Of a stretch of 20,492 nucleotides of DNA, positions 1,277 through 20,230 are shown one piece after another. The notes beneath the pieces are model-generated. The model was not told where the DNA came from and searched no databases. It worked only from the letters and a program-made list of their open reading frames with translations. Every line of letters starts with the position of its first letter. Position 1 is the first letter of the stretch. The translations under genes were made by a program, and so were the position numbers. The stretch is from a virus. The stretch is from IMG/VR virus record IMGVR_UViG_3300049846_000804, positions 1-20,492 of that record; one strand, 5' to 3'.

Positions 1277-1976
1277 CGCCCTGATCACGCCGGAGAAGTG
1301 GCAGGACTGCTGGGAGAACTTCAAGGGGGAACCGCAGCAGGTCTCGGGGATCTGGACGCTGTATGAGCACCTGAAGCAGTCCGACCCTTGCCTGCTGGGC
1401 GAGGCGGCCGAGTGGCTGGCGAAGTTCCGCGAGGAGCCGCCGGCGCCGAAAGCGATCCCTGTGCCCTACTTCTGCCAGCTGCAGATGGACGATGGCCAAG
1501 GCTGGCGCGACTGCTTCTCGACCACGGCCGCGATGATTGCGGCGTGGAAGGGTAAGGTCCCGCCCAACACCACCGGCGAGAACCAGTACAACCACATCCG
1601 CCAGAAGCACGGCGACTCCACCGTGGCTGGCTCGCAGTTGGCGGCGCTGGCGGAGCTGGGCCTGCACGCCAACTACGCCACCAACGGCACCAAGGCCAAG
1701 CTGATCGAGCTGATCGATCAGGGGGTGCCGGTGGGCACCGGGATCCTCCATCACGGCCAGGCCAGCAGCCCCTCAGGCGGCGGGCACTGGATGCTGATCG
1801 TGGGGCACGACGAGAGTGGGGTGGTCGCCCTGGATCCCTACGGGGAGCTGAACGTGGTCAACGGCACTTGGGCACGCCAGGGCAGCGGTGGTGATCACGT
1901 CCACTACAGCTGGAAAAACTGGCTGCCCCGCTGGGAAGTGGCCGGCGCTGACGGCTACATGCTGTGGGTGGCGTGA
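1263..1976 (+). CDS. C39-like cysteine peptidase (papain-like fold), candidate lysis enzyme
   Basis: The protein has 237 residues. Residues 1-60 form a helical module (W..NFKGEPQQ...I..L, then W...F) that I recall from hydrolases of cyanobacterial phages and that may be a targeting module (inferred). Residues 65-237 fit the C39-like/papain-like peptidase fold (Peptidase_C39_2 type). The candidate nucleophile is C84 in WRDCFSTTAAM, with Q72 or Q74 available for the oxyanion hole. The candidate His is H175 in GGGHWMLIVG and the candidate Asp is D191 in ALDPYGE. There is no signal peptide or membrane segment, so export would need a holin or other route. It is followed by a lipase gene through TGATG coupling, and the pair may act on the cell envelope at lysis. 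A regulatory or tail-related protease is the alternative. Confidence 0.75.
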   Translation: MTINDALITPEKWQDCWENFKGEPQQVSGIWTLYEHLKQSDPCLLGEAAEWLAKFREEPPAPKAIPVPYFCQLQMDDGQGWRDCFSTTAAMIAAWKGKVPPNTTGENQYNHIRQKHGDSTVAGSQLAALAELGLHANYATNGTKAKLIELIDQGVPVGTGILHHGQASSPSGGGHWMLIVGHDESGVVALDPYGELNVVNGTWARQGSGGDHVHYSWKNWLPRWEVAGADGYMLWVA

Positions 1977-2554
1977 TGGCAGTCACCGACCTGCAGATCA
2001 AGGCCGCGGCCTCCATGGCATTGGAGGTGTACACGCACCCCCGGGACTGGCTGGTGCGCAGCGATGGCACCACCACCTGGATAGCCATCGAGGGCAGCGA
2101 TGAGCTGGCTGATTGGCGTCGGAACTTTGAGTTCGTGCTGACCAGCACCGATGAGCACCTGGGCTTCGGGGCGTATGCCCGAGAGCTGATGACGCAGATG
2201 TGGGCGGCTGGTGTGCAGCTCGACCGCAATCAGACGATCGTGTTGACCGGCCATTCCCTCGGGGGTGCGGTGGCGACGATCATTGCGGCGCAGCTGCAGG
2301 AGCACCTGCCGCTGCTAGAGCTGGTGACGTTTGGCAGCCCACGCCCTGGCGGCCAGCGGTTTGCTGAGCTGTTGACGGTGCCCCACCACCGCTATGTCCA
2401 TGCCGATGACGTGGTGCCGCACTTGCCGTCACCGCTGCTGGGCTTCCGGCACACCGCACCAGCGCTGCAGCTGAAGCCGTTCAAGGTGGCTCACCTGCTG
2501 AGCGGGGTAAGAGACCACGACATGTTGACCTACAGGAAGCTGCTGAATGAGTGA
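1976..2554 (+). CDS. Class 3 lipase-like alpha/beta hydrolase
   Basis: The 192-residue protein carries the Lipase_3 hallmark TGHSLGGAVA, with nucleophile S94. The rest of a complete triad is visible: an Asp in HADDVVPHLP (D144 or D145) and H181 in RDHDMLTYRKLL. The TFGSPRPG segment after the nucleophile strand is also typical of class 3 lipases. The ATG at 1976 overlaps the preceding TGA by one base; an in-frame GTG at 1964 is less likely. No signal peptide is seen. Placed directly after a peptidase, it may attack envelope lipids or lipid-linked polymers during lysis, by analogy with the LysB esterases of mycobacteriophages, which are a different family. That role is inferred; esterase activity on some other acyl substrate is equally possible. 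Confidence 0.8.
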   Translation: MAVTDLQIKAAASMALEVYTHPRDWLVRSDGTTTWIAIEGSDELADWRRNFEFVLTSTDEHLGFGAYARELMTQMWAAGVQLDRNQTIVLTGHSLGGAVATIIAAQLQEHLPLLELVTFGSPRPGGQRFAELLTVPHHRYVHADDVVPHLPSPLLGFRHTAPALQLKPFKVAHLLSGVRDHDMLTYRKLLNE

Positions 2555-3843: not shown

Positions 3844-5012
3844 CTCACGTCCTCCAGCAGACTGGCAGCAATCACAGTCGTAGAAACGACGTAGTACGTC
3901 AACACGCTGGTCCCAATGGGAATGGTTGTAGCTTTCGTGCCACCAGAGAACTTCCAGTAGGTGCCGTAATTGACGGTGCGTTGGGCTGTAGTTGTAATGA
4001 CGATGCAGCCACTCTGGCCGGCGACCAGATTCGTCGGGTTCGCCAGGGTGCGGTTGCCACCCATCGTCCAGCTGAAGTTGTTGGACGATGAGAAGTCCGG
4101 CGTGACAGTGGTGCTGTCTGTCAGCGCTGTGGGTGTGCCCACGGAGCTGGCGGGAACCGTGACCCGCCCGCTGGCCGCCATCGAAATGGCCGCCACACCA
4201 CCAACCACCAGGGCCAGCTGGTTCGCTCCAGGGCTATAGAGGCCCGTGTCGACATCCCCCGTGAAGGTGATCGAGGGAGTCGCCAGCGCACCCAGCGGAT
4301 AGGCCAGGGCGCCAGTCATCGTGTCGCCCGCCTTGGCGACGTAGCTGGCCTTCAGCCCCGCAGGCGTCACCGCCAGGGCGCCGATGGTGCCAGCAGCCAC
4401 CTCAGCAGCGGTTGCCAGTTCGACAATGCCCTTCTCCGTCTCAGAAGCCTCAGCGACCGCACCACCACCACCACCACCACCGGCCGCGATCGCGTCGTTG
4501 GTGGCCTTGAGCTGATCTGCCGTCACCACCAGGCCAGCGGTGCCTGCCGTCACAGCTGCGGCATCAGCCAGCTGGACCGCCCCCTTGGCTGCCGTGGTGG
4601 CAGAGGGCAAGGCCGTTGCGGCCACTAGGTCGCCTGGTGTCTTGGGGCCCAGCGTGGTGCCGGTGCGGGTCCACACCCTGGCGGCCTCGACAAACTCCGT
4701 CGTGGCGAGCTGGGTGGTGCTGGTGCCAGCGACAGCGGTCGGTGCGCTGGGGGTGCCCGTGAAGGCCGGGCTGGCCAGAGGCGCCTGGCTCGCCAGCGCC
4801 GACTTCAGGCCGGCCGGCGTCACAGCGCGAACCGTATCGACACCCGCGGCAACCTCAGCGGTGGTCGCCAGCTCCACAATGCCCTTTGCAGTTTCGCTGG
4901 CATCCCCAACAGCAGGGGCGCTTAGCACCGCCTTGAGGTCGGCGGCGGTGCAGCGGTAGTCCACTCCACCACGGTTGACGAGGAGCAGATCAGTCTCAAG
5001 CGGAGTGCTCAT
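3840..5012 (-). CDS. Tail fibre protein with phage-tail repeats
   Basis: The protein has 390 residues. Residues 1-30 look like an attachment segment (ETDLLLVNRGGVDYR). Residues 38-73 and 188-223 are two copies of the tail-fibre repeat with core KGIVELATxAEVAAG and AVTPAGLK, as in lambda Stf and P2-type fibres. Residues 79-108 match the Stf-type element SPAFTGTPSAPT followed by ATTEFV. Residues 140-170 repeat a module also present in the long fibre. A run of seven Gly at 178-184 is a flexible hinge. Residues 250-285 (DVDTGLYSPGANQ) and a C-terminal domain from about 300 (GGNRTLANPTNL, YWKFSGGT) are familiar from fibre C-termini. It probably assembles as a trimer and recognises the host surface. 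No S74-type autoprotease is seen. Confidence 0.85.
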   Translation of the reverse strand: MSTPLETDLLLVNRGGVDYRCTAADLKAVLSAPAVGDASETAKGIVELATTAEVAAGVDTVRAVTPAGLKSALASQAPLASPAFTGTPSAPTAVAGTSTTQLATTEFVEAARVWTRTGTTLGPKTPGDLVAATALPSATTAAKGAVQLADAAAVTAGTAGLVVTADQLKATNDAIAAGGGGGGGAVAEASETEKGIVELATAAEVAAGTIGALAVTPAGLKASYVAKAGDTMTGALAYPLGALATPSITFTGDVDTGLYSPGANQLALVVGGVAAISMAASGRVTVPASSVGTPTALTDSTTVTPDFSSSNNFSWTMGGNRTLANPTNLVAGQSGCIVITTTAQRTVNYGTYWKFSGGTKATTIPIGTSVLTYYVVSTTVIAASLLEDVR

Positions 5013-7717
5013 GGCAGCAAGGGGAGAGTGGAAATGTCCTGCTTGAGGTAGCCCTCAAGGTATGCGCCGTTCAACATCTGGATGACGCCAGTGCTGGTGA
5101 TCTTCAGGCGATCGACAGGGGACGCGTTGCCTGATGTCGCGGAAGCAAATACAAGCCTCGCAGGCACCGAGCTAGCAGTAGGAGTGCCATCTACCTCGCA
5201 TCGGATGTTCCCTGCAAGACTGAAGCCAGTGCCGTTTGCGCCATGCCATTCGATGGCTCCGATGTTGTCGTCAACCTGCAGGGCCTCTCTGGCAGTACCT
5301 CTAGCCTTTGAGAACAGAAAGACATTGGGGAAAGCAGTGCTGTCGTTGCGATGGGTGCCCAAGCTGCCACTGGACCCGATGACCTGCAGCTTGCAGACAC
5401 CAGTTGTCGGATTGTGCGCATCCCCGATGGGCGTGGCGGAACCAAGAAGCAGCCTGCCGGTCCCGATCGACAGCGAGCTGCCGGCAGCCTTAGGGGTGAT
5501 CGTGCTGCCGTCGCTGGACCAGAAAGTGGCCGCCAGCAGCTGATCTGCACTCACCACGCGCCCCGCCGTGCCTGCTGTGATAGCTGAAGCATCTGCCAGG
5601 CGAACAATGCCTGCAACGGCGGTGGTGGCTGACGGCAGCAACGCCGGCAGCGACTTGTTGACCCACTGGCCACTACCCCCCAGCGCCAGAACTTCATCAG
5701 CAGCCGGCGCGGTCAAGACAACGTCCAGGAGGTCGTCGAGGTTGCTCGCGCCACCTCCCCCGCCGCCACCACTTGCGCCGTTCAGAGTGTCAACGCGCAC
5801 CCAGCCTGCAGCGGCGCCGTTACACAGGATCCAGTCGCCTGCGTCGAAGGTGGTGCTGGCGGCCTGAGCTGTGCCGGCGCCAGGCGTGGTGCAAACAAAA
5901 TAAGCGCCAGCGGCTGCGTCAGACGCGACGGGGATAGCGTCGTTGACCTTGAAACCTTCGGCGGTGCCGAACTGCGTGACACCCGTGATAACACCTGTGG
6001 CAGCATTGAAGACACCGCAGTAGCGCAGGTTTTCAGCAGTCAGGCGACCAGTACCGATCGGGAACCAGCTGTTCCCGTTCCACATGCGCACAGCTCCTGT
6101 CGATTCCTGGAGCCACAACATCCCGTTGTGGACCGTATTGGCCTGGGATGGAACTGCCTCCTGGATGAAGGAAACGGCGTAGTCGGCCAGCTTCTCCTGG
6201 GTGATGCTGCGGTTGCCGATCAGCGCGGAGTCCAGCGTGCCGCTGGTCAGCTTCCCAGCGTCCAAGCTGGGGATGTCAGCAGCCACAAGGGAGCCGCCCG
6301 CTGTGACGTGGCCCGTGGCGTTGACCGTCACTTTGGTGTGAACGCCCGCTATGACACCGCTGGTGCTGTGGGTGACTGCGCCATTGCCGTCGATAGATAG
6401 GACCGGGCCAGGAAAGGATGCCGCGCCGGCCGCTGCAGCGGTTGCCAGGGGGAGGTCAGCGGCCACCAAAGCAGCGGTGCTCTTGATATGGCCGTTGGCG
6501 TCGTAGGTGATGCCGTTGCGAGTGCCCGCCACCACGGTGTTGGAATGGCTGACTGCACCCACGCCGCTGACACTCAGGCCACCGGTGGGGCTGATCGAAA
6601 CCACCCCGGCTGCTGTGGTGGTCGCGGTGGGCAGGTCGGCCGCCTGGATGGCAGCGGTGCCCGTGATGTGCCCCTGCGCGTCGTAGCTGATGCCGTTGCG
6701 ACTGCCGGCGGTGAGCGCATTGGTGTGGCCGATGGCCCCGTTGGTGATGTCCAGCCCCCGGTCGACGATCCCCGCCGCCAGCTTGGACAACGGCACCGAA
6801 CCCGCCGCCAGCTTGGCTCCGTCAATCCCTGTCGCCAGCTTGGCGTCGGTGATCGCTCCCGCAGCCACAGCCGCAGTATCGACCGCCCCATCAGCTAGCT
6901 CTGTTGCGGTGATCGCATCGGCCGCGATCTGCACCGTGGTCACACTGCCTGAGACCAGCTTGGCTCCATCAATGCCAGCCGCCAGCTTGGCGTTGGTGAC
7001 GGCCAGGGCAGCGATAGCGGCAGTGTCAACGGCATTGTCCGCCAGCTCCGAAGCGCCGACGCTGTTGGCAGCCAGCTCGCGGGCAGTGATGCTGTCTGCG
7101 GCCAGCTTGCCGCCATCAATGTCGGTCGCAAGCAGCGTGTTGGTGATGGCGCCAGCGGCAATCTGCGTGGTGCCGACGCTGCCTGCCGTGAGTTTGGCGC
7201 CACTGATGCCGGCGGCCAGCTTGGCGTTGTCGACGCTGGCGTCGAGCAGCTTGGCACCATCAATGCCGGTGGCCAGCTTGACGTTGGTGATGGCGGTGTC
7301 CACCACCGCGGCCGTATCGACAGCCCCATCGGCCAGCTCCACTGCCGTGATGGCGTTGGCGGCGATCTGGGTCGAACCCACGCTGTCGGCCAGCAGCTTG
7401 GTGCCATCGATCCCGGTGGCTAGCTTGGCGTTGGTGACCGCCAGGGCGGCGATTGCCTCCGTGTCCACCGCGTTGTCGGCCAGCTCGACGGCGGTGACGG
7501 AGTTGGCGGCCAGCTGGGTGCTGGTCACGCTGTCGGCGGTCAGCTTGGCGCCGGGGATGGCGCCGTCGTCCACGAAGGCGATGCCTCGCTGGACCACTCC
7601 CTTGAGGCTCAGCCGGCGCGTCTCGCTGGAGCTGTAATCGGCAACCGCCAGGTCATCGGTCGCTTCCGCGTCAGCGGGTAGCAGCACCGGAAGTTCCGAG
7701 ATCCTTAGGTCCGCCAC
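5009..7717 (-). CDS. Long tail fibre protein with decapeptide repeats
   Basis: The protein has 902 residues and a GTG start at 7717. Residues 1-45 (RISELPVLLPAD, then DDLAVADYSSSETRR) resemble the N-terminal attachment segment of fibres. Residues 52-315 are an almost unbroken series of 9-10-residue repeats. Residues 327-483 hold three longer repeats built on an AGxRNGIxYDAxGHI-type core followed by AADLP or AADIP. Around 530-640 is a domain with MLWLQESTGAVRMWNG and a strand-rich stretch. Residues 649-656 are a poly-Gly hinge followed by SNLDDLLDV. Residues 696-730 match a module of the next fibre. The C-terminal 170 residues are a mixed beta domain. It ends in an ATGA overlap with the second fibre gene. 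A long trimeric fibre shaft is the likely structure. Confidence 0.85.
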   Translation of the reverse strand: MADLRISELPVLLPADAEATDDLAVADYSSSETRRLSLKGVVQRGIAFVDDGAIPGAKLTADSVTSTQLAANSVTAVELADNAVDTEAIAALAVTNAKLATGIDGTKLLADSVGSTQIAANAITAVELADGAVDTAAVVDTAITNVKLATGIDGAKLLDASVDNAKLAAGISGAKLTAGSVGTTQIAAGAITNTLLATDIDGGKLAADSITARELAANSVGASELADNAVDTAAIAALAVTNAKLAAGIDGAKLVSGSVTTVQIAADAITATELADGAVDTAAVAAGAITDAKLATGIDGAKLAAGSVPLSKLAAGIVDRGLDITNGAIGHTNALTAGSRNGISYDAQGHITGTAAIQAADLPTATTTAAGVVSISPTGGLSVSGVGAVSHSNTVVAGTRNGITYDANGHIKSTAALVAADLPLATAAAAGAASFPGPVLSIDGNGAVTHSTSGVIAGVHTKVTVNATGHVTAGGSLVAADIPSLDAGKLTSGTLDSALIGNRSITQEKLADYAVSFIQEAVPSQANTVHNGMLWLQESTGAVRMWNGNSWFPIGTGRLTAENLRYCGVFNAATGVITGVTQFGTAEGFKVNDAIPVASDAAAGAYFVCTTPGAGTAQAASTTFDAGDWILCNGAAAGWVRVDTLNGASGGGGGGGASNLDDLLDVVLTAPAADEVLALGGSGQWVNKSLPALLPSATTAVAGIVRLADASAITAGTAGRVVSADQLLAATFWSSDGSTITPKAAGSSLSIGTGRLLLGSATPIGDAHNPTTGVCKLQVIGSSGSLGTHRNDSTAFPNVFLFSKARGTAREALQVDDNIGAIEWHGANGTGFSLAGNIRCEVDGTPTASSVPARLVFASATSGNASPVDRLKITSTGVIQMLNGAYLEGYLKQDISTLPLLP
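6773..7564 (-). repeat. 27 tandem decapeptide coding repeats in the long fibre gene
   Basis: By hand I can divide fibre residues 52-315 into 27 units of 10 (sometimes 9) residues with the pattern [small][A/S][I/V]xxxx[L/I]A[A/D]. Units recur in order, making a superrepeat of about 49 residues (147 bp): SVxxxQIAA-type, AITxxELAD, AVDTAA, TNAKLAT, GIDGAKL. Four superrepeats are complete, and the units between the second and third are shortened, as expected after deletions between homologous units. The DNA repeats well enough (recurrent gccagcttggc) for recombination or slippage. Confidence 0.85.
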
Positions 7718-13011: not shown

Positions 13012-13328
13012 TTCACCGCCGACTCTGCGAAGCTCAGCCACCCGTCCTCCCAGAAAACAGCCAGGCCATAGCCCTTGTCGGCCTGGCACAGAGCAATCAC
13101 GCCACAGTCTAAATTCGCTGTCTGTTGGCCCCAGCGCTCCAGCTCCTCGCGGAAGACGGTGTAGTCGCCGCGGCGCAGGCGGCGATACCAATCCCGTGTC
13201 GGTGCTGGTGCGGTGTAGCCGTAGTGCTCCACCACAGCCTTGGCCAGCCCGAAGCAATCGGTGACACCATGGCGCTCAGGGTCGGCGCCCAGGCGGTAGC
13301 CCATCCCCACCAGCCGGTGGGGCGTCAC
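12933..13328 (-). CDS. NlpC/P60-like tail assembly protein, gpK-like
   Basis: The 131-residue protein has a GTG start at 13328 overlapping the L-like stop (GTGA). VTDCFGLAKAVVEHYGY places candidate nucleophile C25 as in NlpC/P60 cysteine peptidases, followed by WYRRLRRGDYTVFREELERW, typical of the short phage-tail versions. Lambda gpK, in the same gene position, helps mature the tail tip. The strand that should carry the catalytic His reads YGLAVFWEDGWLSF, and I see no His there; H35 is too close to C25 to take that role. The protein may be inactive as a peptidase or use an atypical residue. Its C-terminus (ACFSAQKLPSAKPSA) lies in the overlap with the J-like gene. Confidence 0.7.
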   Translation of the reverse strand: MTPHRLVGMGYRLGADPERHGVTDCFGLAKAVVEHYGYTAPAPTRDWYRRLRRGDYTVFREELERWGQQTANLDCGVIALCQADKGYGLAVFWEDGWLSFAESAVKWSPIGALPVVACFSAQKLPSAKPSA

Positions 13329-13795
13329 CGGTTGTAGATCTGTCCGCTGGTGGGGAGCGCGCCCACCAAGGTGCTGGTCAGCACCCGCATCGGCGCTGAG
13401 GCGCCCACGGCGTCGATGCTGCTGCTGAGCAGCACCTCAACGGTTTCGGTGTCGTAGCTCATGCTGGCCGCCAGCCAGAACTCGCTGGTGAGGGTCCGCG
13501 CCACCGCAAACGTAGTGGGGTTCATCGAGCAGCTGTCCACGCGGATGTTCCACTTCTGCTGAACCGCCTGGGTGGCGTAGCCCATCGACAGCGCGTTGAC
13601 CTCCAGGATCAGCCCCGCCTCCAGGTTGTCGCCCGTGCGGTTCTTGGCAGCACCTTGGTAGATGAAGCTCAGGTAGGACCAGCTGACGCCCCGGTGGCTG
13701 ATGGTCTGACCGGGCAGGCTGTTCTGGAAGCGGTGCTGCACGGCGCCGGCAGCATTGGACACCTCCAGGAAGTTGGTGAGGGCAACGACGGTCAT
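13325..13795 (-). CDS. Minor tail protein, gpL-like
   Basis: The 156-residue protein has an ATG at 13795 with AGGTGG upstream on the minus strand (about 13803-13809). It lies immediately before the NlpC-like gene, where lambda-type genomes encode gpL. The C-terminal half, with SYDTETVEVLLSSSIDA, PMRVLTSTLVGALP and a terminal QIYNR, resembles the gpL/DUF1833-like tail proteins. The Cys cluster that binds iron-sulfur in lambda gpL is not present (a single Cys at about residue 89), so cofactor binding is unlikely. It probably sits at the base of the tail tip around the tape measure C-terminus. Assignment rests on position plus weak motif resemblance. Confidence 0.6.
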   Translation of the reverse strand: MTVVALTNFLEVSNAAGAVQHRFQNSLPGQTISHRGVSWSYLSFIYQGAAKNRTGDNLEAGLILEVNALSMGYATQAVQQKWNIRVDSCSMNPTTFAVARTLTSEFWLAASMSYDTETVEVLLSSSIDAVGASAPMRVLTSTLVGALPTSGQIYNR

Positions 13796-13809
13796 CAGGT
13801 CATCCCACC

Positions 13810-13815
13810 TATAAT
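13810..13815 (+). promoter_or_regulatory. Candidate -10 box for the HNH gene at 13838
   Basis: A perfect TATAAT lies 23 bases before the ATG of the HNH gene, in the 42-base gap between divergently starting genes. No good -35 hexamer is seen 16-18 bases upstream, so this is tentative. A free-standing antisense gene would need its own promoter, which adds some weight. Confidence 0.35.
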
Positions 13816-13837: not shown

Positions 13838-14482
13838 ATGCCTAAGGCAGGCGTTGACCGCACCGGCCAGCGGTTCGGTTCCATCGTAGTTACAGGGAGA
13901 GTTGACATGCCTTCTCACGTGGCTGGCCCGAAGTGCTGGTGGTGGAGCTACGTCTGCGACTGCGGCGGCACAGGCAAGGCGCGTGGCTCAGACATAGTTA
14001 AAAAAGTGTCATGCGCCGCCTGCACAAGACGGCGGCACGCGTTGCAGGTCGCCACTCATGGGATGAAATACACCAGCATCTACCGGGTATGGTGCAACAT
14101 GTGGCAACGCTGCACTAACAAAAATCACAGGAGCTACCACCTTTACGGTGGACGGGGCATTAGTGTCGCACCGCAATGGAAGTCGTTTGAGACATTTGTT
14201 GCCGACGTGCCCAAAAAGCCAGAAGGCACGTATCAGCTGGACAGGATAGATAACTCAAAGGGGTACGTGCCTGGCAACGTTCGGTGGGCTACCCCAAAAG
14301 AAAACAATAGAAACAGGCGTAGCAATGTGTTGCTTACATGGCAAGGCAAAACACAGTGCATTGCCGATTGGGCGGAAGAGCTAAACACCACACAGGCCAC
14401 GCTTAAGCAGCGCATTAGAAACGGCTGGTCTATTGAGAGGGCGCTTACTACGCCTCGTCAGCTACGCAAGTCCCATTCTTGA
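13838..14482 (+). CDS. HNH-like homing endonuclease with zinc knuckle
   Basis: The 214-residue protein starts at ATG 13838. Residues 40-62 hold CxC and CxxC, a small zinc knuckle. Residues 74-160 contain the phage homing-endonuclease core: IYRVWCNMWQRC, YGGRGISV, LDRIDNSKGYVPGNVRWA, then KENNRNRRSN, an HNH-like (beta-beta-alpha-metal) catalytic region. Residues 164-205 (LTWQGKTQCIADWAEE, then TLKQRIRNGWSIERAL) form a NUMOD/helix-turn-helix-like DNA-binding tail. It should nick or cut a specific site and spread into endonuclease-free relatives. It lies antisense within the tail operon between the tape measure and L-like genes. Its last 21 bases overlap the tape measure 3' end. Base composition is poorer in G+C than the tail genes, supporting transfer. 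An in-frame extension back to 13655 overlaps the L-like gene and is rejected. Confidence 0.85.
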   Translation: MPKAGVDRTGQRFGSIVVTGRVDMPSHVAGPKCWWWSYVCDCGGTGKARGSDIVKKVSCAACTRRRHALQVATHGMKYTSIYRVWCNMWQRCTNKNHRSYHLYGGRGISVAPQWKSFETFVADVPKKPEGTYQLDRIDNSKGYVPGNVRWATPKENNRNRRSNVLLTWQGKTQCIADWAEELNTTQATLKQRIRNGWSIERALTTPRQLRKSHS

Positions 14483-17400
14483 TCTGACCGACCTTTTGTT
14501 GCGCAGGTCGCCCATGACGCGGCTATGGCCGCTGGCTGCGCCCTGCTGAGCAGATTGACGGCCCATGGCGCGGACCTGCTCAACCGTGGCGTACTCCACG
14601 TTGTTGATCACGACGGTCTCCAGGGTGAAGTGTCCGCCACCTCCTGCCCCACCGCCACCACCTGCGGAGCTGGAGTCGGGGATGACGCTGCTGCCGCGGC
14701 GGCCGGCGGCGTAGCGGTTCATCGCCGCGCCCATCTTGCTGGCGGGAATGACGTACTCGCTCTCGCCGCCTTCGCCGATGATGGCGCGGGTCGGGCCGGT
14801 GACAAACCCCCCAGATGCAAAGCCGATGTTTGCCCCGAATCCTGCCATTCCAGGACCCTCGAAGTTCCAACCACCGGCCTGGGAGAACGGTCCTGCGCCG
14901 CTGAACCCACCGAAGCCACCTCCGCCAAGGCTGTTACCAAAGATGCCCAGCACCTTCATCACCAGGGCCTTGGCGATCATCTGGGTGGCCATGTCGATGA
15001 AGGCTTTGCCGATGTTGGCGAACATCTGCGACATCGCCTGCTGGACTGTGGTCGTGCCAGTGATCAGGCCGGTGATGGCGTTGCTCATGGCGCTGCCGAT
15101 CTCGCCCTCTATCGTCTGCGCCAGGCTGAGGATCATGCCCTCGGTGTCGTTCAACTCGCCTTGCAGCTGCGTGATGTAGTCACGAATCTTCTTTCCCTTG
15201 TCGCCATCGATGGCGCCCTTCTCGGCGGCGGTGCCCTTACCCTCGATGACCCCGCGCTGGGCCTTGAGCAGGTCGAGTTGTTTTTGCAGCTCCTCGGTCC
15301 ACTTGCCTTCGGCCATGAGCTTCGTCTTCGTGGCTTCCAGCTGCGCGACTGCGGTGTCCAGCTGCTCCAGCTGCAGGCGCACCTGCTCGCGGATCTTGGC
15401 GACCTGCTCCGCCAGCGCTGGGGTCATGCCGTCTTTGATCAGGCCGGCGTACTCGCGCTGGAAGGCAGCGGCGTCCTGCTGCGACTTGATGATCTGGTCG
15501 AGGGGGGCGTTGAGCTGGTCGGTGATTGCCGTGACGCTCTGGCTGAGTACCTGGGCTGCCTGCTCCTTGGTGAGCTGGGTGAACGCCTTGGCCAACTCCA
15601 GCGCATTGGTCTTGGCGCTGAGCAGCTTCTGATCCAGCTGGCCCATTGACGCCAGCAGGCCGCTGACATCTGAGGCGCCGGGGAGCTTGATGCCGCCCAG
15701 TTGGGAGGTGGCCTGACCAACGCTGGCGGGCAGTGCAGGTGCTGTCGGGGCGGGGGCGGTAGCTGGGGCAGCTGGGACTGCGCTTCCCCCAGCCAGTAGT
15801 TGTTTAACGATGGGCGCCAACTGTGCGTCGGGTACGTTCTGCAGCCCGATCCACTCCTGGCGAAGCCCGGCCATGGATTGGTTGACACTGCCTGGCACCA
15901 GGCGATTACGCGCCAGCGCGGCAAACAACTTCTCCTGCACCTCCGGGGTGAACTTGTCGTTGGCCGTGACTCCGGTGTTGCCATAGCTGCCGTTGAGCAG
16001 GCCCCGCAGCGTGCCCCCGATGATCTGGTACTTGCCGACAGCGTGGAGCTGCTGGTTGCGCGGGACGTTCGGAGCTAGCTGGCGGCGCTGGATCTCCGCG
16101 ATCGTCATGTTGACGAGGTTGGGATCGACGCCGCTGCCGTGGGCGGTGTGGCCGTTGTTGCTGCCGCCGCGGTTGAAGGCGCCGTAGTTGCCGCCGTAGC
16201 TCTCAACGCCGCCGATCAGCCCGCTCAGCGCCCCGTAGGGCCCAGCTATCTGCCCTGTAAGTCCACTGGTGGCCGCCAGCTGTTGGGCAGCGTTGGTCAT
16301 CAGGGAGATGGCCTCTTTCATCTTGGCCACCTGGTAGTCGGCAGCCTGCACTTGCAGGTCGTAGATGGCGCGGGCGGTGGTGATCTTGGCCCGCTCCACG
16401 TCGCGGGTCAGCTCGGCGCCCTGACGATTCAGCTCGTCGACCTTGCGCGCCACATCGAAGCGGAACTTCTCGGAAGCCTTCTTCAGGTCTTCCATCTCGA
16501 TGGTGTGCAGCCGCTCCTTCTGCTGGAGGTTGGCTTCGGCTTCGGAGCGGGTCTTGACGTACTGGCGGACCGCATCCAGCAGGCTGTTGGCCAGGTCTTG
16601 GCCGGGGACGTTGCCGCTGACGCGGCTGCCGGAGAGCTGCAGATCCAGTCGCTCGATCGCCAGCTGCGCCTGTTGGCGGGCGTTGTCGATCTCGATGCGG
16701 GCGATGTCCTGCCGCTTCTTGTAGATCTCGTCCTCGATGGAGCGGCGCAGGTCGAGGGTGGCCCGCTCCAGATCGGCTGCCCGCTTGCGGAAGCCGTAAG
16801 CCTGGTCCTCGATTTGAAGGCGTAGGTCTTGGGCCTGACGCTCCAGCTGGATTCCTTGGCGGCGCAGCGCCTCGGCCCGCTCTGCTGCAGCGAGCTGCTT
16901 GTCGGCGGCGTCTTGCAGCGCCTGCGGGGAGGTGGTGGTCGCGTTCGGTTTGCCTGGGGTTAGCCCGTACTGCTGGATGTAGCGCTGCTGCAGCTGCTGG
17001 AGCTTCGCTTCGTCTACGACACCACCGTTGGCGTTGCGCAGGGCGATTGAGTCCTTGAAATACTGCTGATACGCCTTGGGGCTGGCCGTGTTGAGCGCGG
17101 TGAGGAAATCGGTCTGTGCAGCCTGAGTTCGATTGCGCTTGTTGGTTTCACCAATGATGCGCGTTATCCAGTCCAGCAGGTCCGCCAGGGGGCCAGCGAT
17201 GGCCGCCTGCATCTGCAGGTTCAGCTCGGCCCATGCCTTTGCTGCCCTGTCACTGCTGTCGCCGAGCCTGGTGAGATCGTTTACTCCAGCGGCTCCGATC
17301 TTCTTCACCATCTCGCCTTGGATGATGGCGGTGGCTTCTGTGATATGTCCGACCTCGATGAGGCGGCTGATGTAATACTCCTGCGACTTGCTGGCCAGCA

Positions 17401-19084
17401 GGCCGGCCTCGGCCAGCTTCTGGAAGTTGGTGATTGGATCGCGCAGAGCTTTGCCGGTGTCCTGGGCGGCGGCCGCGAACTGGTCCAGTAGTTGGCCGAT
17501 GGCGCTGGTGAACACCGAGAAGATCGGGTTGGCAGTGTTCAGTCCCCCGCCCAGCGCGCCGCCGATGATCGAACCGGCCCCTCCGCCAAACAGCAGCGGG
17601 AACGCACCCCCGATGGCGGCACCTTCAAGGGCCTTGCCTCCTTGGGCCTTCTGAGCTTTCAGATCCTGAACACGGTCCTGGCGCCTCGCCCTGCGGATAC
17701 GAACAAGAACCTGCTCGATGCGCTGCTGCAGCTGAAGCTCCTTTTCCATGGCAGCGGCGCCGGCCAATAACTCCATCTCGAGCTGCTTGGCTGCCCCGGC
17801 CACCCTGCCGGCGAGCGCGACCTGAAGGCGGTACTGGAAGGTGGTCTGGGCTGCGGCTTTGCCCGCGGCCGTCTCAGCCGCGGCCCGTTCGCGCATCCGG
17901 TTGACCATGTTCTGGACAGAGCCCTCCACGGCGGTGGGGCTCCCGGCTGGGCCTGCGGGGCTGGCGTATCCAAACGCCACGGGGCGGCGGATTACCTCGG
18001 CGGGGGCTGCGTTCTTGGCTGCGACTGCTGCTGCCAGCCGCTTACGAGCAGCCTCGCTTTCTGTCTTCTCCAGATCGCGGACCGCACGCTCTGCCTCGTA
18101 GGCCGCAGCGGCGATCTCCTTGTAGGAAAGTCCGGGATCGTCCTCACCACTGATTCCTCGTTTCACACGGGCTCTGGCGATGGACTTGTCGATCGCAGCC
18201 TGTTCAATGCCTGAGCGGACCTGATCGGCCGCCTGACTGAACGCGGCAAAACCGGAACCAGCGCGCCCAGCGCGGCTGCGAGCCAAGTTAGTGGCTACGC
18301 TCGCCTGGCTATTGAACTCCCGCTGTGCGCGAGCGGCCGCCTGCAGCAGTGTGTTCTGCCTCTCCTGTTCGGTGTTAAGCCGCTTGGTGACATCGACCAG
18401 CTTGTAGGCGATCTTGACGGCCGTGTCTGAGTCAGAGTTGGTCTTGTTGAGGGCCGCCTGCAGCGCTGATTGACGACGCCCCAGGTTGGAGACAGTCTCG
18501 TTGACTTCATACAGCCGTCGCCTATACAACTCGACGGCCGAGGTGGAATCGCCAATGAGGGTGCTCAGCCCATTCAGACTTAGGCCGGCGCGTTGAAACG
18601 CACGTTCAATCGGGGTCTGCAGCTCCGCTGCGACCCTGGCGAGTTTGAGGGTGTCCTTAGTCGCCCGAGCAATCTGCGGTGCAAATCCGATAGCTGCGAC
18701 GGTGGCCGCCGTTAGCCCAGCAGCCAGCAGAGGGTGCGCCGCGGCCCCTGCGAGCGCTGCCTCGGTGAGTCCCGCTATTGCCTTGGTGGAGGCACCGATT
18801 ACCCCAGGCAGTCGGTCTAGCCCGCCCCCGATGATTGGAGTGCGGTTAATGTCTCGCAGGATTAACGCAAGAGTCCCTAATCCCCCTGCAGCTGTTAGTC
18901 CTCTAGTGACAGACGCAAGCCTGCTGAATGATGCGGTGATGGACTGTATGGATCGTTCACCATCAGTCCTGAAGCTCAGGCGCGTCTCTTGGATGCGCTC
19001 TAGCCGCTTGGCGATGGAGTCGATCGCCTGCTCGGCCTTCCTGACGTCCGCGCCTAAGGAGATGTTGACGTCGTAGTTGGCCAA
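14462..19084 (-). CDS. Tape measure protein with lysozyme-like domain
   Basis: The protein has 1540 residues; if the usual ruler relation (about 1.5 angstrom per residue) holds, the tail would be about 200 nm or somewhat less. The only in-frame start after the upstream stop is TTG at 19084, with AGGGG 10 bases before it. Residues 103-138 and 487-515 are hydrophobic Ala/Gly stretches. Residues 730-930 are strongly coiled-coil. Residues about 945-1100 resemble a phage lysozyme/transglycosylase domain: VESYGGNYGAFNRG with candidate acid E961, MTIAEIQRRQ, VGKYQIIGGTLRGLL and FTPEVQEKLFAALA. That domain could open peptidoglycan during DNA entry. A Pro/Ala linker follows. The C-terminus has GEGGESEYVIPASKMG, common in tape measures. 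Homing endonuclease genes lie on both sides. Confidence 0.9.
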   Translation of the reverse strand: MANYDVNISLGADVRKAEQAIDSIAKRLERIQETRLSFRTDGERSIQSITASFSRLASVTRGLTAAGGLGTLALILRDINRTPIIGGGLDRLPGVIGASTKAIAGLTEAALAGAAAHPLLAAGLTAATVAAIGFAPQIARATKDTLKLARVAAELQTPIERAFQRAGLSLNGLSTLIGDSTSAVELYRRRLYEVNETVSNLGRRQSALQAALNKTNSDSDTAVKIAYKLVDVTKRLNTEQERQNTLLQAAARAQREFNSQASVATNLARSRAGRAGSGFAAFSQAADQVRSGIEQAAIDKSIARARVKRGISGEDDPGLSYKEIAAAAYEAERAVRDLEKTESEAARKRLAAAVAAKNAAPAEVIRRPVAFGYASPAGPAGSPTAVEGSVQNMVNRMRERAAAETAAGKAAAQTTFQYRLQVALAGRVAGAAKQLEMELLAGAAAMEKELQLQQRIEQVLVRIRRARRQDRVQDLKAQKAQGGKALEGAAIGGAFPLLFGGGAGSIIGGALGGGLNTANPIFSVFTSAIGQLLDQFAAAAQDTGKALRDPITNFQKLAEAGLLASKSQEYYISRLIEVGHITEATAIIQGEMVKKIGAAGVNDLTRLGDSSDRAAKAWAELNLQMQAAIAGPLADLLDWITRIIGETNKRNRTQAAQTDFLTALNTASPKAYQQYFKDSIALRNANGGVVDEAKLQQLQQRYIQQYGLTPGKPNATTTSPQALQDAADKQLAAAERAEALRRQGIQLERQAQDLRLQIEDQAYGFRKRAADLERATLDLRRSIEDEIYKKRQDIARIEIDNARQQAQLAIERLDLQLSGSRVSGNVPGQDLANSLLDAVRQYVKTRSEAEANLQQKERLHTIEMEDLKKASEKFRFDVARKVDELNRQGAELTRDVERAKITTARAIYDLQVQAADYQVAKMKEAISLMTNAAQQLAATSGLTGQIAGPYGALSGLIGGVESYGGNYGAFNRGGSNNGHTAHGSGVDPNLVNMTIAEIQRRQLAPNVPRNQQLHAVGKYQIIGGTLRGLLNGSYGNTGVTANDKFTPEVQEKLFAALARNRLVPGSVNQSMAGLRQEWIGLQNVPDAQLAPIVKQLLAGGSAVPAAPATAPAPTAPALPASVGQATSQLGGIKLPGASDVSGLLASMGQLDQKLLSAKTNALELAKAFTQLTKEQAAQVLSQSVTAITDQLNAPLDQIIKSQQDAAAFQREYAGLIKDGMTPALAEQVAKIREQVRLQLEQLDTAVAQLEATKTKLMAEGKWTEELQKQLDLLKAQRGVIEGKGTAAEKGAIDGDKGKKIRDYITQLQGELNDTEGMILSLAQTIEGEIGSAMSNAITGLITGTTTVQQAMSQMFANIGKAFIDMATQMIAKALVMKVLGIFGNSLGGGGFGGFSGAGPFSQAGGWNFEGPGMAGFGANIGFASGGFVTGPTRAIIGEGGESEYVIPASKMGAAMNRYAAGRRGSSVIPDSSSAGGGGGAGGGGHFTLETVVINNVEYATVEQVRAMGRQSAQQGAASGHSRVMGDLRNKRSVRSRMGLA

Positions 19085-19129
19085 ACCCGCGTAGCCCCTA
19101 ACTGCGTTAGCTCACTGTAGGTCGGCAGT

Positions 19130-19156
19130 AAAAAGCGGGCCTACCGGCGGGCCCGC
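19130..19156 (-). terminator. Rho-independent terminator upstream of the tape measure gene
   Basis: On the minus strand a 7-bp G+C stem (GGCCCGC at 19135-19141 pairing with GCGGGCC at 19150-19156, as read on that strand) is followed by five T (19134-19130). It lies 46 bases before the tape measure start. It would end transcripts from the chaperone genes about 540 bases after their stop, with the HNH gene's antisense in between. Confidence 0.65.
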
Positions 19157-19229
19157 CTACTTAAGTATGATTGGGGTGCTCCAGCGGGTTGCAGCCCCTG
19201 AAGCGTGACCGATCAAAACCGCTTGACCG

Positions 19230-19712
19230 ATGACAAAGCCTAGGCCGCTGCCTCCTTTGGAGGTGCTTGAAGAGCTGTTTGCCTACGACCCATTAACCGG
19301 GGTGCTCTCCTACAGGAAACGGCCAAACAAGCACTCCACCACTCAGGCGGGCGCACCCGCTGGCACCGTTCACATCAGCGGCTACTTAGTGGTGACGGTT
19401 AATCGAACCACATATCGAGTCCACCGCATCATCTGGAAGCTGGTTACTGGGGCGGAGCCTCCTGAGCTCATTGATCACAAAAACCGGGACAGGGCGGATA
19501 ACAGGTGGGCAAACCTCCGCGCAGCCGAGGCTTGGCAAAACCTAGGAAACAGGCGGGCCCCCAAGGGAGGGGTAACGCCTGGGCGCAAGAGGGGTAGCTG
19601 GAAAGCGCAGTTCAATGGGAGCTCTAAAACGTTCCCCACAAAGGAGGAGGCCCACCAGGCTTACGCCCAGTGGCACCTCCAGTATTTCGGCGAGTTTTCT
19701 ATCTACGCCTAG
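19230..19712 (+). CDS. HNH homing endonuclease with AP2 domain
   Basis: The 160-residue protein begins at ATG 19230. Residues 15-60 form a strand-rich lead (YDPLTGVLSYRKRP, GYLVVTVN). The HNH_3-type nuclease motif follows: YRVHRIIWKLVTG with H65, IDHKNRDRADNRWANLR with D82, H83, N91 and N95. Residues 114-158 resemble an AP2 DNA-binding domain (GSWKAQFNG, KTFPTKEEAHQAYAQ, then GEF near the end). This domain pair is a classic free-standing phage homing endonuclease. It is antisense to the tail operon, between the tape measure and the assembly chaperone. Its last 14 bases overlap the 3' end of the chaperone's frameshifted extension. The nearest -10-like element is TATGAT at 19166-19171, without a clear -35. 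Confidence 0.88.
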   Translation: MTKPRPLPPLEVLEELFAYDPLTGVLSYRKRPNKHSTTQAGAPAGTVHISGYLVVTVNRTTYRVHRIIWKLVTGAEPPELIDHKNRDRADNRWANLRAAEAWQNLGNRRAPKGGVTPGRKRGSWKAQFNGSSKTFPTKEEAHQAYAQWHLQYFGEFSIYA

Positions 19713-20230
19713 CACTCTTCATGGCTTTCTCCTGTTCGTCATTCAGATGACCGAAGAATGCGGACCAGAGTAACAACTCTTCTTGGGTTATTTCTGCCCA
19801 GAGTCTAGTCAGGGTGTAACCCAGTTCTTTAGCCACTGATAACGACAGGAGAAGCCATTGATCCTTACTTAGCTGTTGCTGAACTGCTTTTGGGCTCCAG
19901 GGGGGCCTCGTCGTCGGAGGCGCTGAGGACGGCCAACATCAGCTGCTGCAGGTCGGCGTCACGCACTTCGTTCTTCAGCTCCACCATGTCGGCGGGGATG
20001 AACAGCTTCTGGCCGTTCTCGTCAAGGGCCTTGTCCACCAGCAGCTGCAGCGCGAAGGCGTTGGCGTCGTCGGACTTGGCGTTGCGTTGGGCGCGGTCAC
20101 GCTCCGCCATGGTCAGCGGTCTCGACCAGAAGGTGAAGGTGCTGCCATCGGACAGCTCCACATCCTTGCGGCTGGGCACCAAGTTGGCGGCGTTCTTCAG
20201 ACGGTCGATGGCGCGGATGGCTGATGCCAT
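19699..20230 (-). CDS. Frameshifted tail assembly chaperone (GT-type fusion)
   Basis: A second frame, +1 (equivalently -2) relative to the 121-residue chaperone, is open from before that gene's end to TAG at 19699-19701. Its translation after the chaperone region reads KDQWLLLSLSVAKELGY, then LTRLWAEITQEELLLWSAFF and GHLNDEQEKAMKSARRR. This strongly resembles the T part of tail chaperone fusions in many siphophages (a VAKELG..... motif followed by ELxxWxAFF). The T frame has no start codon of its own in a sensible place, so it must be read by frameshifting. Slip at either candidate site (bases 19888-19905) gives a 176-residue product by +1. The fusion would bind the tape measure and recruit tube subunits. 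The reading is mine from the bases; product size needs experiment. Confidence 0.75.
19865..20230 (-). CDS. Tail assembly chaperone (G-type, unshifted product)
   Basis: The 121-residue protein has an ATG at 20230, and no strong Shine-Dalgarno sequence is seen. It has the usual layout of a G-type chaperone: an N-terminal strand region (DVELSDGSTFTFWSRPLT), then ERDRAQRNAKSDDANAFALQLLVDKALDENG helices, FIPADMVELKNEVRDADLQQLMLAVL, and a short acidic, Ser-rich tail. The position between the putative major tail protein and the tape measure is the standard one. It should coat the tape measure during tail assembly and be absent from virions. Most ribosomes would stop at TAA 19865-19867; a fraction should shift into the T frame. 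A terminator just upstream separates it from the major tail protein transcript. Confidence 0.8.
   Translation of the reverse strand: MASAIRAIDRLKNAANLVPSRKDVELSDGSTFTFWSRPLTMAERDRAQRNAKSDDANAFALQLLVDKALDENGQKLFIPADMVELKNEVRDADLQQLMLAVLSASDDEAPLEPKSSSATAK
19888..19905 (-). promoter_or_regulatory. Candidate programmed frameshift site
   Basis: Two runs could support the shift into the T frame. A C6 run (plus-strand G at 19900-19905) lets a CCC codon re-pair with CCC after +1, or also after -2, giving EAP then WSPKAV. An A4 run (19888-19891) lets AAA re-pair with AAA after +1, giving EPK then AVQQQL. I cannot tell which is used; the lambda-type -1 heptamer is not appropriate, since the T frame is not at -1. 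Confidence 0.5.

Follow-up and report, generated by a model that had tools for sequence, protein, structure and literature searches.

A 20,492-base IMG/VR fragment of a siphovirus-like phage (IMGVR_UViG_3300049846_000804, the whole of which is called the window below) carries the gene for the tail length tape measure protein (TMP) between two predicted HNH homing endonuclease genes (HEGs), HEG1 and HEG2, which run antisense to the tail genes on which they converge. In filled alleles of these sites, the last codons in use are a diverged version of those native to the tail gene, whose original end stays on the far side of the insertion together with the start region of the next gene or with a hairpin. 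We suggest, with a probability of about 45%, that these insertions are natural home-and-rescue elements. Specifically, at least two unrelated HNH families would have settled separately, in antisense orientation, in the 3′-terminal parts of essential tail genes, bringing with them rewritten, cleavage-resistant C-terminal codons, such that the 3′ end of the HEG encodes the end of the target protein on its opposite strand.

Relatives were gathered with six queries: the long tail protein J of the window, TMP, the tail assembly chaperone, the tail gene downstream of TMP, HEG1 and HEG2. All compared sequences (designated by L numbers) are metagenomic contigs, many of them short; a search of genome contigs for relatives gave no match.

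Two HNH genes at the ends of tail genes

HEG1 (13838-14482, plus strand, 214 amino acids) has an N-terminal CxC..CxxC ribbon and an LDRIDN..Y..N..W core. Its HNH nuclease domain is recognized by the profiles phrog_374 (1e-53) and phrog_3377 (7e-53), both labelled 'HNH endonuclease', and a Pfam search of HEG1 gave no match. HEG2 (19230-19712, plus strand, 160 amino acids) carries a Pfam HNH_3 domain (1e-12, above the cut-off), matches phrog_99 (5e-45) and has a weak AP2-like C-terminus (0.0036, below the cut-off). A sequence search of solved structures with both proteins returned no HNH match, and the TPR matches of HEG2 found there are repeat artefacts. The initial annotation had described two plus-strand HNH genes of different families flanking TMP, which the Pfam and PHROG assignments bear out, and the difference in family rules out the duplication of one HEG.

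HEG1 overlaps TMP by 21 bases (14462-14482) and HEG2 overlaps the chaperone extension by 14 bases (19699-19712), exactly as had been annotated. These overlaps are more than incidental: the C-terminal codons of the tail gene itself come from the cassette. Neither HEG lies inside an intron or intein: an Rfam scan detected no intron, and the junctions are simple insertions that leave no room for one and restore the coding sequence without splicing. HEG1 and HEG2 are thus very probably two independent, free-standing HNH homing endonuclease genes, with a predicted nuclease activity, that lie antisense inside the last codons of TMP and of the chaperone extension, respectively; for HEG1, placement inside the last TMP codons is the most likely arrangement.

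Rebuilt gene ends and native remnants

The HEG2 site provides the clear case of a native C-terminus left behind. The N-terminal part of the chaperone (G, 19868-20230, minus strand, identified by profile and nucleotide comparison) is continued by an extension (T, 19699-19890, minus strand). The chaperone extension had been correctly named as the overlap partner of HEG2, with the correction that ribosomes enter it through a +1 (or −2) shift on CCC-AAA-AGC. The programmed frameshift site, GAGCCCAAAAGC, lies at 19886-19897 on the minus strand, and in 22 loci a CCCAAAAG motif was parsed that gives an identical shift. Frameshifting in tail chaperones is usually −1.

The contig L048 is a near-exact empty allele for this site and reads GAAAGCGATGAA-GCGGGCCCGCCGGTAGGCCCGCTTTTTACTGCC... 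across it. By comparison, the window carries a cassette of about 560 bases (19157-19716) between ATGAA(G) at 19717-19731 and a remnant of the ancestral extension end (CGG GCC CGC CGG TAG, 19135-19156, minus strand). From 19156 downwards the window, beginning GCGGGCCCGCCGGTAGGCCCGC, equals L048 in 87 of the first 90 bases. The far flank of HEG2 therefore returns directly to empty-type sequence, and the ancestral end (R-A-R-R-stop) and its hairpin are intact on the TMP side of the gene. On the chaperone side, the cassette supplies a rebuilt end, AGT GCT AGG CGT AGA TAG (SARRR-stop, 19699-19716, minus strand), which is fused in frame to the resident tail gene and is partly the antisense of the last HEG2 codons. 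The junction in L020 is the same as that in the window. L019 is without a remnant and has a KKAQRRR-stop end, as found in the empty L055 and L060.

The remnant at 19135-19156 lies within a GCGGGCC/GGCCCGC hairpin followed by TTTTT. This GC hairpin and T-run (GCGGGCC...GGCCCGCTTTTT), which overlaps the stop of the chaperone extension just before TMP on the minus strand, is found also in L004, L047, L048, L052, L054, L058 and L059, and could attenuate transcription between chaperone and TMP.

The codons ahead of the rebuilt end have diverged along with it. Extension GC content at third codon positions (GC3) is 0.45-0.48 in all three HEG2 carriers (0.48 in the window) versus 0.71-0.85 in 15 empty close relatives. 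Between the window and the empty L047 and L048, G retains 91-95% nucleotide identity, and the adjoining extension about 68%; between L020 and its empty sister L052, the values are 95% for G and 78% for the extension, the protein of which remains 87% identical. Synonymous changes rise accordingly from 15/106 in G to 24/41 in T for the window and L047 (p = 2e-7), and from 10/104 to 23/48 for L020 and L052 (p = 3e-7). No such jump between G and T is seen in seven empty-empty control pairs.

A similar anatomy is observed at the TMP 3′ end. The rebuilt end in the window (14462-14500, minus strand) is NKRSVRSRMGLA followed by the stop, and its last 21 bases double as HEG1 codons. The empty L147 has the same peptide type (NKRSVRSR.G.), and most of the last ten codons differ. 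On the far side of HEG1, the minus-strand sequence AGGTGGGATGACCTGATGACC at 13790-13810 (in the empty L147, AGGTTGGGGATGCGCTGATGACC) is a probable remnant of the ancestral TMP end together with the ribosome-binding region of the next gene; it is short, with a 2-base gap, and is moderate evidence taken alone. L050 and the empty L149 have identical last 15 residues, 10 of 15 testable codons are changed, and L050 retains the remnant GCCTGCGATGACC. The cleanest case is L109, in which 10/12 synonymous codons among the last 15 are changed relative to the empty L110, compared with 10/58 upstream (p = 2e-5). In 119 empty-empty pairs the mean of this difference is 0.05 (s.d. 0.19), a figure that serves as a guide rather than as independent trials, as the pairs share ancestry. 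The window, L050 and L109 thus each retain a short remnant of the native C-terminus at the TMP 3′ site.

Overlap coding was ruled out as the cause of the codon changes, given that the change in T spans ~60 codons for a 14-base overlap, and that in L109 the last ~12 codons for a 4-base overlap.

Spread among relatives and competing explanations

Each site is empty in the majority of relatives and has been refilled in several lineages. The chaperone/TMP site is empty in about 115 distinct contigs, in which the distance from the G stop to the TMP start is mostly 143-242 bases, and is filled only in the window, L019 and L020 (a spacer of 760-781 bases in the latter two). The HEG2 homologues at this identical site share 88% (L019) and 79% (L020) amino acid identity with that of the window. 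The TMP 3′ end is empty in about 90 contigs, where the TMP stop touches or overlaps the next start codon. It is filled, always antisense, by HEG1-family genes in the window, L050, L109, L205 and L207. Indeed, of 478 relatives found by a HEG1-profile scan, the top three (L205, L207 and L206, the last being the same contig as L109) all lie at a TMP 3′ end. Given so many empty contigs and such scattered carriers, empty alleles are common, and identical sites have been filled in separate lineages. The HEGs therefore show presence/absence polymorphism at fixed sites and horizontal spread, in line with the reading of the initial annotation as homing endonuclease genes, and the patchy occurrence is not that of fixed residents without empty alleles.

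Both sites are filled together in the window alone. L050 and L109 are filled at the TMP end only, and L019 and L020 are filled at the chaperone site on contigs that stop inside TMP, so that their coverage ends before the HEG1 site.

Two comparisons reveal what moves with the HEGs. In the G tree the HEG2 carriers are dispersed, and well-supported branches force at least three changes of HEG2 state, whereas in the T protein tree the window pairs with L019 (support 95/93). The extension and HEG2 of the window match an L019-like phage, and the rest of the chaperone matches L047 and L048. In the simplest reading of these sequences, the window would have received HEG2 plus about 190 bases of extension from an L019-like phage. 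This visible tract lies on the opposite side of HEG2 from TMP. At the other site, L109 and L207 have 751 identical bases in common, comprising the whole HEG, 48 bases of TMP end ahead of the stop codon, and a flank that reaches slightly beyond the start codon of the next gene. Outside the tract the two contigs are several percent different, and the interiors of their TMP genes (877 and about 894 codons in length) fail to align. Thus, the rebuilt end is inherited along with its cassette, and the tape measure did not move with them.

We consider the following model likely. In a mixed infection, the enzyme would cut the tail gene of a naive phage within its conserved 3′ end, as is suggested by HNH homing enzymes and the free-standing HEGs of T4 (PMC2988022). 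Repair would then copy the cassette with its rebuilt end from the carrier, keeping the tail protein functional and the downstream signals in place, and the new allele would no longer have the cut site. The position of TMP between two such sites would be a coincidence of two insertions, and TMP would not be cargo. With neighbouring tail genes overlapping, any insertion has two demands to satisfy, a restored upstream C-terminus and an intact downstream start, and the observed anatomy satisfies both.

Insertions elsewhere in the tail operon indicate that the rebuilding of ends is common and not universal. Antisense HNH genes are found between the downstream tail gene and an NlpC-like gene (L054 and L153), between the NlpC-like gene and J (L127) and beside a minor tail gene (L153), and sense HNH_3 genes lie downstream, in the tail-fibre part of the operon (L006:5175-5687 and L149:6635-7231). 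Among the few distinct tail-module insertions, 8/9 are antisense (two-sided p = 0.04). The end of the target, the gene before J, is changed in L127. The HNH genes L054:8126-8686 and L153:529-1155 belong to two different families at one tail-gene junction, and a hydrophobic C-terminal extension of the upstream gene is common to both contigs; because L054 and L153 share it, this extension speaks neither for nor against a rebuilt end in L054.

Several points count against the homing model given above. Both antisense insertions in L153 are without a rewritten target end. Cutting by HEG1 and HEG2, and their recognition sites, are predictions from sequence. The structural match of the HEG1 model is to PacI alone and is weak (3ldy_A; Z 5.6, rmsd 3.4, 76 residues aligned; next match Z 3.1; Foldseek E 0.58), and an Arg occupies the position of the first His of the canonical HNH enzyme. 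At the HEG1 site of the window, the remnant is short and a codon test has limited power, even the closest empty relative being remote. In addition, the diverged ends could be imports and not products of selection.

This last point is the basis of a serious alternative, which we consider quite possible: the diverged ends may be foreign tail-gene fragments, acquired through illegitimate insertion or through co-conversion from a distant donor, with resistance to cleavage as a by-product. The grouping of the window extension with L019 fits such an origin, and horizontal transfer is how the inserted C-termini of fungal genes have been explained (PMC3630166). Moreover, the C-terminal motifs are conserved as protein across distant lineages, and any import would therefore look synonymous. 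Less easily accommodated are the low GC3 in all three HEG2-bearing T regions and the L020 extension, which is nearest in protein to that of L052, its own sister in G, while 48% of the shared codons differ. Since this protein is still sister-like, recoding under selection would leave the same picture in L020 as import from a donor outside the sampled contigs.

It is improbable that the two HEGs form an island that carries TMP as cargo and sweeps one tail-length allele through relatives by co-conversion of the whole gene, as the initial annotation had supposed. The geometry fits, in that TMP is an essential gene flanked by HEGs, and islands bracketing tail genes have been described (PMC10448857). 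However, the highly similar cargo expected in otherwise diverged phages is not observed: TMP is the most divergent gene nearby, with 34-58% amino acid identity to relatives that align at length, versus 75-95% for the chaperone. L109 and L207 likewise have the HEG1-type cassette in common and not the TMP interior, and the filling of L050 and L109 at the TMP end alone is not that of a two-HEG unit. A TMP start common to the window and L020 was considered as a HEG-linked tract and rejected, as the empty L048 has it too. Of the proposed co-conversion, the movement of short flanks with the HEGs holds (the 751-base tract and the T tree), and that of the whole TMP is not supported, the part common to L109 and L207 being 48 bases. 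Similarly, the comparison with endonuclease-free relatives yielded the expected empty junctions and no drop in divergence across TMP. A swept tail-length allele is therefore not supported, with the window as the sole known phage with both HEGs; others with both could differ.

We regard it as most unlikely that the HEGs are fixed resident genes acting as antisense dampers of tail genes, a role suggested by the antisense excess among tail-module insertions and by a TATAAT upstream of HEG1 (13810-13815, plus strand) that might be a −10 element for antisense transcription, but disfavoured by the patchy occurrence, the tree conflict, the identical cassette in diverged phages, the 36 HEG1 relatives at other loci that share the strand of both neighbours versus 21 antisense, and a sigma-70 scan that did not score this TATAAT as a promoter and performed overall at chance level.

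Related systems and neighbouring features

The logic underlying home-and-rescue insertion is known from other systems. Mobile endonuclease open reading frames (ORFs) in fungal mitochondria (Allomyces atp6; Glomus atp6, atp9, cox2 and nad3; PMC3630166) also lie in the 3′ part of an essential gene and provide an in-frame inserted C-terminus, with the native C-terminus as a downstream remnant and few protein changes despite large DNA differences. Those ORFs are on the strand of the target gene, are often in phase with it and encode LAGLIDADG or GIY-YIG enzymes, whereas the phage genes are HNH genes antisense in tail genes, and the rebuilt end is partly the reverse complement of the last HEG codons. 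The seg and mob genes of T4, which perform intronless homing (PMC2988022), resemble the present case as free-standing HEGs beside essential targets, with co-conversion and a HEG-bearing allele expected to resist through sequence difference; they are intergenic, and the cuts made by their enzymes lie hundreds of bases or more away, unlike the antisense genes inside the last codons of the target seen here.

HEG islands (Barth, Dunham and Seed 2023, PMC10448857) similarly have essential genes, among them tail genes and TMP, with HEGs of different classes on both sides, but their definition requires cargo that is very similar in phages otherwise diverged, whereas TMP is here the most diverged gene. 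For the I-HmuI-like and PacI-like HNH endonucleases of Skunavirus (PMC12724721), the sections of that study considered here describe patchy HNH genes, site-specific clusters, lower identity of adjacent core genes and some exclusion activity in vivo; they place most sites in the replication module and do not mention a rebuilt C-terminus or remnant. Synthetic HomeR gene drives (PMC7968924) cut an essential gene, insert there and carry a recoded rescue copy, and as engineered Cas9 drives in Drosophila they offer an analogy of logic only. The literature searched, which covers the field in part, did not describe any phage HEG that lies antisense and rebuilds the end of its target, and this form of insertion in phage tail genes looks new relative to the fungal and T4 precedents.

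The tail genes of this phage group overlap or pack tightly, so that a selfish gene has little neutral space in which to land. The anatomy points to a way in which a homing gene may insert nonetheless: the broken end is rebuilt and the start signals of the next gene are untouched. Home-and-rescue would be a natural parallel to engineered rescue drives, and exact testable predictions follow for cut sites and for the codons that confer resistance. In addition, a gene does not become cargo simply by having a HEG on each side.

The TMP gene spans 14462-19084 on the minus strand (1540 amino acids; ORF and profile match), and the C-terminus of its product matches the tape measure profile phrog_339 (2e-14). 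Residues ~941-1096 (about 15,800-16,265, minus strand) form a lysozyme-like segment similar to Synechococcus phage proteins with an endolysin or lysozyme annotation. A tail protein gene downstream of TMP (13325-13795, minus strand) makes up the far flank of the HEG1 site. A different minor tail gene follows TMP in L047, L049, L059 and others, which makes the TMP end a module boundary as well in this phage group.

Elsewhere in the window, J distantly resembles proteins of the Synechococcus phages S-LBS1, S-CBS1 and S-CBS3. An ORF at 1964-2554 (plus strand) has a GHSLGGA motif, probably encodes a lipase-like hydrolase and adjoins a second plus-strand ORF at 1263-1976. A long tail-fibre-like protein with many TAIAALAVTNAKLATGIDGTKL-type repeats is encoded at 5009-7717 on the minus strand.

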